This document shows, one piece after another, positions 12,352 to 25,137 of a DNA stretch of 33,824 bases. Position 1 is the stretch's first letter. Every line of letters starts with the position of its first letter. The translations under genes were made by a program, and so were the position numbers. The notes below the pieces were generated by a model. That model saw only the letters and a program-made list of their open reading frames with translations, was not told the DNA's origin and ran no database searches. The DNA is from Planctomycetales bacterium 4572_13 (GTDB lineage: Bacteria; Planctomycetota; Phycisphaerae; Sedimentisphaerales; Anaerohalosphaeraceae). The stretch is from assembly GCA_002084585.1 (NCBI GenBank), contig NBLM01000006.1, positions 1 to 33,824 on the forward strand, given 5' to 3'.

Positions 12352-13062
12352 TTAGTCCAAGTGGACGACACCTTGTTTTCGGTCGGCTTCTAATGAGGCC
12401 TTTTTGAGGATGTCGTAGAGTTGTTTGGGGTTGGCGACCTTTTCGAGTTCGAAGAGCGGGTCGGTGTCGTCTTTGGTTACAAGCGTTACCGAGCCGATGC
12501 CGGTGAGGCAGTCCAGCAGCGAACGGTGCAACTTCAGGTCCACCACGCGGAACATATCGAGATTATCGATCTTGCGGCTGAAGATCCCCCGACCGTACTC
12601 GATGCGGTCCGGGCTGACTTCATAATAAATGCTCTTGAGTTGAGCCGCCCGCAGAATCACCATCAACAGCGTCAATATCCCCAGTGCCATCCCGACATAG
12701 CCGGTATAGCGGTCGATCCGCTGGATGAAATTCTCGTCTAAAACCTTTGGAGTCAGCCCCTGGACAAGATCGCCAATCGGATAGGACAACAAAAACACCG
12801 CGACAACCATAAACATCGCCGCTGTTAAAAAAAATCCAAGCAACCCCCACAGCGATGGGCTGACAGAACACAAGCCGAAATCGTCGGCATTTTCCTCTGG
12901 ATCCGGCTCTGCGGCGTTTCGGCCAAAGCCCCGGCGGGCGTGATGCGAGACAGGCAGGCCGTCGTCATCTTCGAGAAACTCCCGGCAATAGCGGCATTTG
13001 AGTGCTTCGGCGTGAATGACTTCGCCGCAAAATGGGCACTTTTTTGTCGATTCGTGTGGCAT
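12352..13062 (-). CDS. Zinc-ribbon plus PH-like (bPH2/DUF304-type) membrane protein
   Basis: KKCPFCGEVIHAEALKCRYCREFLEDD double-CxxC ribbon; two TM segments; YYEVSPDRIEYGRGIFSRKIDNLDMFRVVDLKLHRSLLDCLTGIGSVTLVTKDDTDPLF. Start MPHESTKK preferred. Confidence 0.8.
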   Translation of the reverse strand: MPHESTKKCPFCGEVIHAEALKCRYCREFLEDDDGLPVSHHARRGFGRNAAEPDPEENADDFGLCSVSPSLWGLLGFFLTAAMFMVVAVFLLSYPIGDLVQGLTPKVLDENFIQRIDRYTGYVGMALGILTLLMVILRAAQLKSIYYEVSPDRIEYGRGIFSRKIDNLDMFRVVDLKLHRSLLDCLTGIGSVTLVTKDDTDPLFELEKVANPKQLYDILKKASLEADRKQGVVHLD

Positions 13063-19854: not shown

Positions 19855-21708
19855 TTGGCTAAAGCAATGGACATTTTGAAGAATAAGCTGGACCCGAAAA
19901 ACCTTGAGAAGCTGGTCGCGATCTCGAATGCAAAGATGCATGCGTTTGTCGCCGAGGCAATCGAGCTGACGAACCCGGCGAGTGTGTGCGTTTTCACCGA
20001 TTCGGCAGAAGATTTGGCTGTTATCCGCGAAAAGGCGAAGAACGGCGGCGGAGAGTGCGTTTTGGCCACCGAAGGGCACACCTCTCACTTTGACGGACCC
20101 AAAGATCAGGCCCGCGATAAGGCCAACACTAAATACCTCCTGCCGGAAGGCATGGAGTTGGGAGCCAGCTTGAACTCCACCGACAAGGCCTCCGGTCTGG
20201 CTGAGGTTCAGGGCTTTTTGAAAGATTCCTATGCCGGCAAGGAAATGCTGGTTTGCTTTTTCTGCTTAGGCCCAACAAAATCGGACTTCTCGATCTCCTG
20301 CGTACAGATTACTGACTCCTATTATGTCGCTCACAGCGAATGCCTGCTGTATCGACCCGGCTATGAGCAGTTTAAGAATGTCGGCGAAAACGAGGAATTC
20401 TTCAAGTTCCTGCACACCCAAGGCAAGCTCAATGAGAGCGGATGCAGTGCGGAAACTGATAAACGCCGTGTGTATATAGATTTAGTTAAAAACACCGTAT
20501 ATTCCACCAACACGCAGTACGCCGGAAACACCGTCGGCCTGAAAAAGTTGGCACTGCGGCTGGCAATCCAGAAAGCCGCCAAAGAGGGCTGGCTCGCCGA
20601 GCATATGTTCATCATGGGCATCAACGGCCCGGCCGGTCGCAAGACCTATTTCGCCGGTGCGTTCCCCTCGGCTTGCGGCAAAACATCGACCGCGATGCTA
20701 CCCGGACAGACGATTGTCGGTGACGACATTGCCTATTTCCGCAAGAAAGACGGCAAGATGATGACCGCCAATGTCGAACAGGGCATCTTCGGTATCATCG
20801 AAAATGTCAATGCGGACGACGATCCAATTATTTTCGAGTCATTGAACAACCCCGGCGAAGTCATCTTCGGCAATGTGCTGATTTCAGACGGCAAGCCGTA
20901 CTGGATGGGCATGGGCGCCGATGTGACCGCAAGCGGTACCAACTATCAAGGCGACTGGAACCCAAGCATGACCGATGTGAATCCGTCGCACAAGAACGCC
21001 CGTTATACCATCCGACTGAATGCGTTGGACAATATGGATCCCGAACTGGAAAACCCAAACGGTGTTGAGACCGGCGGCATCATCTACGGCGGCCGCGACA
21101 GCGATACGCAGGTGCCGGTTGAGCAGGCGTTTGACTGGACCGAGGGTATCATCGCCAAGGGCGCTTCGATTGAATCCGAAACCACCGCCGCAACATTGGG
21201 AGCAGCGGGCGTGCGAACCTTTAACATTATGGCCAATCAGGACTTTGTTTCGATCCCGCTGGGTCAGTACATCCAAAATAATCTGGACTTTGCCAAGGGC
21301 GTGGACAGCGTTCCGCCGATCTTCTCGACGAACTACTTCCTCAAGGAAGACGGCGAATTTCTTAATGGCAAGCTCGACAAGATGGTCTGGCTGCTGTGGG
21401 CCGAGTTGCGAGTCAATGGCGATGTCGAGGCCATCAAGACCCCAACCGGATGGATTCCCAAGTATGAGGATTTAGCTCCGCTGTTCAAGGAAAAACTGAA
21501 CAAGGATTACACTCAGAAAGAGTATATCCAACAATTTACGATCCGCACAGCGAATATGCTGGCCAAGTACGACCGCGTCGAAGCGATCTACAAAGAAAAG
21601 GTCGCCGATACGCCGAAGCTGGTGTACGACACCTTCGCCGCGATCCGCAAACGCTTGAAAGATTTGCAAGCGGCCAAGGGCGATTTCGTCAGCCCACTGG
21701 ATCTATAA
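19855..21708 (+). CDS. pckG: Phosphoenolpyruvate carboxykinase (GTP)
   Basis: FPSACGKTSTAMLPG nucleotide site, NPSHKNARYTIRL, GGIIYGGRDSDTQVPVEQAFDW. Start TTG 19855 or ATG 19867. Confidence 0.94.
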   Translation: MAKAMDILKNKLDPKNLEKLVAISNAKMHAFVAEAIELTNPASVCVFTDSAEDLAVIREKAKNGGGECVLATEGHTSHFDGPKDQARDKANTKYLLPEGMELGASLNSTDKASGLAEVQGFLKDSYAGKEMLVCFFCLGPTKSDFSISCVQITDSYYVAHSECLLYRPGYEQFKNVGENEEFFKFLHTQGKLNESGCSAETDKRRVYIDLVKNTVYSTNTQYAGNTVGLKKLALRLAIQKAAKEGWLAEHMFIMGINGPAGRKTYFAGAFPSACGKTSTAMLPGQTIVGDDIAYFRKKDGKMMTANVEQGIFGIIENVNADDDPIIFESLNNPGEVIFGNVLISDGKPYWMGMGADVTASGTNYQGDWNPSMTDVNPSHKNARYTIRLNALDNMDPELENPNGVETGGIIYGGRDSDTQVPVEQAFDWTEGIIAKGASIESETTAATLGAAGVRTFNIMANQDFVSIPLGQYIQNNLDFAKGVDSVPPIFSTNYFLKEDGEFLNGKLDKMVWLLWAELRVNGDVEAIKTPTGWIPKYEDLAPLFKEKLNKDYTQKEYIQQFTIRTANMLAKYDRVEAIYKEKVADTPKLVYDTFAAIRKRLKDLQAAKGDFVSPLDL

Positions 21709-21782
21709 CAAAAGCGCGTCGGCGCAAGCCGACCGATGATAACGCCAGCGTTTTCAGTAACGCAATCGCGCGGCTCCGCTGT
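21709..21782. repeat. Dispersed hairpin-flanked repeat, copy A
   Basis: GTCGGC-GCAA-GCCGAC then CGATGATAACGCCAGCGTTTTCAGTAACGCAATCGCGCGGCTCCGCT; shared with the reverse complement of 23635-23719. Confidence 0.7.
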
Positions 21783-21796
21783 TGTTAGCAAACCCC

Positions 21797-21831
21797 AAAG
21801 GGACGGCCTCAAAGCCGTCCCTTTTTTTATT
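21797..21831 (+). terminator. Intrinsic terminator after the PEPCK gene
   Basis: AAAGGGACGGC-CTCAAA-GCCGTCCCTTTTTTTATTT. Confidence 0.88.
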
Positions 21832-21964: not shown

Positions 21965-22302
21965 ATGACAGAGATTACAGCAAAAAGTTTCAATAGTGTT
22001 GAAGACTCACGAATCTTTCTGGATGGCAGTAAAAGGTCTGTAATAGTCTTGGAATCTGTAGCTATTGGGCGAGGGGAATATCTCCCCGGTTGGAGATGGT
22101 CTCTGCATGCATACCCACAGATTGGAAAGAATTCAGAAGCTCATATTGGTTATGTTCTTTCCGGCCAAATGGCAGTTCGGTCGGCTAGCGGAAAAAAATT
22201 ACGGTTGGCCCTGGAATGGCATTTGAGGTGCGGCCTGGACATGATGCTTGGGTCGTGGGCGACGAGCCATGTGTAGCTCTGGACTTTACAGCTTCCCCTT
22301 GA
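21965..22302 (+). pseudogene. Cupin-domain gene interrupted by a -1 frameshift at A_AAA_AAA
   Basis: ORF frame gives MTEITAKSFNSVEDSRIF...GRGEYLPGWRWSLHAYPQ...HIGYVLSGQMAVRSASGKK; the -1 frame after 22198 continues ITVGPGMAFEVRPGHDAWVVGDEPCVALDFTASP* to 22302. Confidence 0.8.
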
Positions 22303-23611: not shown

Positions 23612-23634
23612 CTCAAGCGTCCCTGCTTGAGAGC

Positions 23635-23719
23635 AAAAGCGGAGCGGCGCGAGCCGCCCGATTGCGTTATCGAGAAATGCTGGCGTTATAATCGGAGGGC
23701 TTTCGCCCTCGCGATTTTG
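23635..23719. repeat. Dispersed hairpin-flanked repeat, copy B (opposite orientation to copy A)
   Basis: GCGGC-GCGA-GCCGC, CGATTGCGTTATCGAGAAATGCTGGCGTTATAATCG, then GAGGGC-TTTC-GCCCTC; reverse complement matches 21709-21782. Confidence 0.7.
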
Positions 23720-25065: not shown

Positions 25066-25137
25066 ACCATGAAGGACACGAAGGGCATGAAGAAGAAATA
25101 ATTATAAATACTTCATGTACTTCATGCTCTTCATGGT
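25066..25137. repeat. Imperfect palindromic intergenic repeat with 9-nt periodicity (copy 2)
   Basis: 27-nt arms ACCATGAAGGACACGAAGGGCATGAAG (25066-25092) / CTTCATGTACTTCATGCTCTTCATGGT (25111-25137); AT-rich loop. Confidence 0.8.

Follow-up and report, generated by a model that had tools for sequence, protein, structure and literature searches.

REPINs with GNRA-capped hairpins in a planctomycete genome and their probable class-3 RAYT partner

Main finding

Two structured repeats in the 33,824-nt stretch of planctomycete DNA analyzed here (the window; contig C52 of a 1.8-Mb MAG, G000, that is 83% complete) are very probably non-autonomous REPINs that a class-3 RAYT mobilised in trans, their mobility being deduced from sequence comparisons. 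The elements, of about 80–120 nt, each contain a 29-nt REP twice, in inverted orientation, which in single-stranded form is predicted to fold into an 8-bp stem with one bulge, a GNRA loop and an unpaired 5' CAAMAG. The enzyme that copies them in trans would be a Y1 HuH transposase (RAYT/TnpA-REP) belonging to class 3 of TnpA-Y1, whose own gene is framed by matching REPs in relatives. The transposase may bind both folded REPs of one strand, its single tyrosine would cut, the ends would be rejoined, and the doublet would insert elsewhere in single-stranded DNA, mostly between genes. Binding, cutting, the strand preference and any present-day mobility are predictions of this model. What is new is the REP family, which belongs with the little-known class-3 REPtrons; REPIN/BIME mobile repeats themselves were already known.

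Architecture of the two window copies

Copy A occupies 21709–21784 on the plus strand and begins at the base that follows the TAA stop codon of pckG (21706–21708); the names pckG, waaA and tyrS were assigned by reading the ORFs of the window. Its intact left REP (21709–21737, plus strand) matches the search pattern given below with 0 mismatches and folds as ssDNA into CAAAAG, an 8-bp stem interrupted by a single bulged C, and a GCAA loop (CAAAAGCGC-GTCGGC-GCAA-GCCGAC-CGAT). A 27-nt spacer (21738–21764) leads to the truncated right REP (21765–21784, minus strand), where 9 nt comprising the loop and half of the stem are gone. Judging from the same pckG site in the congener G007, at which this REP is intact, the loss in copy A is a derived deletion. 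Copy B (23634–23719, minus strand) is located between waaA and tyrS and has both REPs intact around a 28-nt spacer. Both match the pattern and fold as ssDNA, the second-subtype REP (23634–23662, plus strand; CAAAAGCGG-A-GCGGC-GCGA-GCCGC-CCGAT) with a bulged A and the first-subtype REP (23691–23719, minus strand; CAAAATCGC-GAGGGC-GAAA-GCCCTC-CGAT) with a bulged C. The two copies share one plan, two inverted REPs around a spacer of 27–28 nt.

A sequence-only reading of the window had reported a dispersed repeat with two copies in opposite orientation, and its coordinates proved right to 1–2 bases. It had also called the unpaired core nearly identical, which is true of copy A versus copy B because both share one spacer class, but not of the family, in which spacers vary freely. 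The second hairpin it described is intact in copy B and collapsed in copy A, as it said; its account is corrected in that each strand of a doublet carries only one of the two GNRA loops.

Other features of the window were noted in passing. A 71% inverted match to the copy A REP at 12379–12406 is either a decayed REP or chance. Just after tyrS (25066–25137) there is a long palindrome, built of ATGAAG-like repeats, with two 36-nt arms that are 75% complementary without gaps. An ORF read as cupin-like (21965–22300) has an apparent frameshift near a run of seven A residues (22192–22198), which reflects either real decay or an assembly error.

Family size and distribution

REPs were searched for with the 29-nt pattern CAAMAGCGC-GNNNGC-GNRA-GCNNNC-CGAT (CAAMAGCGCGNNNGCGNNAGCNNNCCGAT), allowing up to 3 mismatches, and the reversed pattern was used as a control. 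The repeat is not confined to the two copies in which it was first noticed: its own MAG has 52 REPs (28 forward, 24 reverse) and 0 matches to the reversed pattern, which gave at most one match in every genome searched. The same search found 42 REPs in G002, 33 in G007, 16 in G009 and 12 in G001, and the unit is present in seven of nine congeners. With copy A as an 80-nt query, 29 matches were obtained in its own genome, together with clear recurrence in G002, G007 and G009 and weaker matches in G004. REP, BIME and REPIN families are built from a palindromic unit of 20–40 nt in many genomic copies, and this one has a unit of 29 nt in 52 copies. By crude ORF calling, 36 of 50 REPs lie outside ORFs of at least 150 aa, compared with 27% of random positions. 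The 5' end is CAAAAG, CAACAG or TAAAAG in nearly all listed copies, and neither a GTAG (GT[AG]G) nor a CGTC tag was found at the REP end.

Among the matches listed, 27 of the 28 REP pairs less than 200 nt apart are inverted in the order "+ then −", and an element of this form (REP, spacer, REP) is therefore a REPIN/BIME. Spacers are mostly 26 to 60 nt long, with classes of 26–28, 37, 45–48 and 56–60 nt, and are otherwise variable. As a separate observation from few independent cases, these lengths step by about 9–10 nt, perhaps as a result of modular growth or helical phasing.

REP structure and covariation

The single-stranded REP folds into an outer helix of 2–3 bp and an inner helix of 5–6 bp under a GNRA cap, with one bulged base between the helices that is usually C in subtype 1 and A in subtype 2. 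Stem and loop were analyzed on a gap-free REP alignment with degenerate patterns; a 38-row alignment whose rows were chosen by hand forms no part of the evidence. Three stem positions are unconstrained in the pattern, and there 80 of 103 distinct REPs pair perfectly, compared with a mean of 20% and a maximum of 33% in 2000 shuffles, which ignore the relatedness of copies. In a control that preserves relatedness, the stem partner was slid by 1–3 columns and perfect pairing was found in only 0–5 of the 103. Eleven different paired triplets occur among the distinct REPs. The loop is GNRA in 94% of 149 listed copies, a value that is partly conditional because the pattern, within its tolerance of 3 mismatches, fixed the first and last loop letters; it put no constraint on the R in third position. 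The sequence-only reading, made from two copies, that stem changes are compensated and the loop stays GNRA thus holds across the 149 listed copies, and compensatory changes continue beyond the first pair. The fold energy of whole doublets is weak relative to shuffles (copy A, z −0.8, no better; copy B, z −2.2, modest), so the structural evidence is the covariation and not the energy.

A partner Y1 transposase in relatives

In G002 (JAOUFG010000052.1), a 167-aa Y1 gene lies between two complete REPINs, and its stop codon, TAA, is the start of TAACAGCGCGG, so that the gene overlaps one of the flanking REPINs. The protein has the motifs NHVH (HuH) and YVVYEQ, its predicted catalytic tyrosine is Y148, and it scored just above the cut-off of the Pfam Y1_Tnp model (25.4 bits vs 23). 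The NCBIfam REP_Tyr_transpos and IS200 models scored far below their cut-offs on it, and a PDB profile search returned only weak matches to IS200-type transposases (best E 0.005). A homologue with 45% identity in G030 (WGDE01000234.1) is framed by an inverted pair of CAAMAG-type REPs, and that genome has 12 more REP copies elsewhere. The G002 and G030 proteins are sisters in the tree (97/90), and the next branches (G001, a Sedimentisphaerales MAG) have different flanking repeats: the G001 enzyme is framed by CAAAAGCCCGAAGCGGCAGCGCAGGG and its REP is of the CCCGAAGCG type. Transposase and REP type are inherited together. Overall, 29 of 37 class-3-like Y1 genes have matching repeats on both sides, compared with 1 of 68 control positions.

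Judged by its sequence, the G002/G030 partner enzyme fits the published description of "class 3" TnpA-Y1 in its Y----Q motif, its planctomycete bias and its non-GTAG, REPtron-like flanks. A Y----Q motif is present in 35 of 35 relatives. The taxonomic distribution agrees with that given for class 3, mainly Planctomycetes with some Acidobacteria and Proteobacteria. The named carriers of the partner gene, two congeners included, are Phycisphaerae/Sedimentisphaerales MAGs. The CnGA foot occurs as CGGA in the second REP subtype and is absent from the first. The multicopy state of a self-moving IS200/IS605 transposase was not seen in G001 or G002, each of which has one close match. Across Planctomycetota, class-3 Y1 genes were also observed to be framed by related hairpins (e.g., GAGCCGGAAGCGTAAGCGACGG), whose loops are GNRA-like and whose stem is interrupted.

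The sequence-only reading had proposed a REP/BIME or a non-autonomous element mobilised as ssDNA, which the copy number, the compensatory changes and the REP-flanked Y1 genes of relatives all support. The REP-associated tyrosine transposase that it suggested looking for was found flanked by the matching REP in G002 and G030, but the window's own MAG, which is incomplete, yielded no intact one.

The window's own genome and orthologous sites

We found no intact class-3 RAYT in G000, G007 or G009 despite their 52, 33 and 16 REPs; the absence is not proven, because these assemblies are 83%, 88% and 70% complete, respectively. The own MAG does have a decayed class-3 RAYT gene (G000:C86:4380-4499; 42 aa remaining, 58% identity), which adjoins a second, different REP type, AGCCCGAAGCGCAAGCGCAGGG. 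Because no intact gene was found here, it is from the relatives that we infer that a RAYT moved copies A and B, and an enzyme like that of G002/G030 would have served this genome.

At the 3' end of pckG, a REPIN is present in G000, G007 and G009 with three different stems (GTCGGC, GAGGGC and GGGATC), all of them compensated. The site is without a REPIN in G002, G003, G004, G005, G006 and G008, the G003 contig stopping shortly past it. The sequence-only reading had also proposed a search for empty sites, and element-free orthologous neighborhoods do exist for both copies; those at pckG are not clean single-step empty sites, since the neighboring sequence differs too. The pckG site shows no target-site duplication, and we saw neither a target-site rule nor an excision event. 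In G003, G007 and G009, an extra GGGAACGCGGGCGTCCCGCCCGC-like hairpin was noted between pckG and the REPIN site; it is missing in the window copy.

The REPINs could alternatively be inherited remnants that are immobile in the window's species, consistent with the own MAG yielding no intact RAYT and with copy A having lost half of one REP. Two observations argue against this. Between 13 and 17 of the REPs in the own MAG still match the degenerate pattern perfectly, and copy B is missing in G003 and G007, both of which retain the waaA-tyrS neighborhood, so that it was either gained in the window's lineage or lost in the others. Presence and absence between species, as compared here by sequence, give by themselves neither the direction of change nor the present activity of REPINs. 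We regard immobile remnants as unlikely, though a serious alternative, and as a present-day state they would be compatible with earlier mobilisation by a class-3 RAYT.

It is improbable that another Y1 enzyme of the genome, either class 1 (IS200-like) or class 2 (RAYT), mobilised the REPINs in trans. Further Y1 genes do exist in the own MAG and in congeners, but none of the approximately 30 inspected (in G000, G001, G002, G004, G007 and G009) is framed on both sides by the CAAMAG REP.

Even less probable, in our view, is that the hairpins are RNA elements, such as intrinsic terminators or 3'-UTR stabilisers of upstream genes, that are kept by selection on RNA structure. REPs elsewhere can acquire such side roles, and both window copies do follow stop codons, as had been pointed out from the sequence. 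However, REPs sit between genes in all orientations, divergent pairs included, and copy A is followed at about 21798–21827 by another hairpin, which has a T run and resembles a terminator. In addition, since either strand of a doublet has a GNRA loop at one end only, any transcript has one GNRA and one non-GNRA hairpin. An Rfam scan of the window at the gathering threshold identified one tRNA only and matched no REPIN. The intrinsic terminator was rejected as a candidate, there being no T run directly behind the hairpins and mixed gene orientations. A MITE of a DDE transposase with terminal inverted repeats is barely conceivable, as the doublet ends are indeed inverted but each end is itself a palindrome whose loop and bulge are conserved, the partner gene encodes a Y1 HuH enzyme, and the pckG site has no visible target-site duplication.

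Comparison with known systems

The window family offers a clean test case for class-3 enzymes, with a strongly structured REP, covarying doublets and two sister enzymes with a matching REP. Because these sister enzymes share one REP type and related lineages carry others, enzyme/REP co-evolution and the recognition of a GTAG-free guide are directly testable in vitro. More tentatively, and with considerable doubt, class-3 REPINs may be an extensive and mostly undescribed set of mobile repeats throughout Planctomycetota. Their bulged, GNRA-capped hairpins, lacking a GTAG guide, would co-evolve with a Y1 enzyme that branches deeply and stands between classical RAYTs and the IS200 transposases, and REPINs could outlast their own RAYT.

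REPINs/BIMEs with a RAYT are known from Pseudomonas fluorescens SBW25 and E. coli (PMC3116915, PMC8266576). Like them, the window family is made of extragenic, many-copy inverted doublets of short imperfect palindromes with compensatory changes, and its REPs frame a Y1 transposase gene whose product probably moves them; the bulged stem is shared with the REPs of E. coli. In contrast to these REPINs, it lacks the GTAG/GT[AG]G foot and has an unpaired 5' CAAMAG and a GNRA loop, and its partner enzyme falls outside the class-2 RAYTs. The GTAG- and CGTC-tagged REP superfamilies, which include members in the PVC superphylum (PMC3733652), are likewise short intergenic stem-loops that form dimers, but the window family carries neither tag.

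Another close system is that of the class 3 TnpA-Y1 proteins (Quentin et al. 2018, PMC6006769), which have a Y----Q motif, were described from a few genomes, occur mainly in planctomycetes, and are flanked by atypical non-GTAG structures also found elsewhere in the genome; that study suggested that they may be intermediate between domesticated RAYTs and the IS200/IS605 transposases. We found no report of doublet organization and covariation for this class. The described CnGA foot is matched by the second REP subtype only (CGGA), and the 8-bp stems of the window family are strong, whereas the described structures are weaker. The Y----Q motif, the planctomycete bias and the non-GTAG, REPtron-like flanks that recur elsewhere in the genome are common to both.
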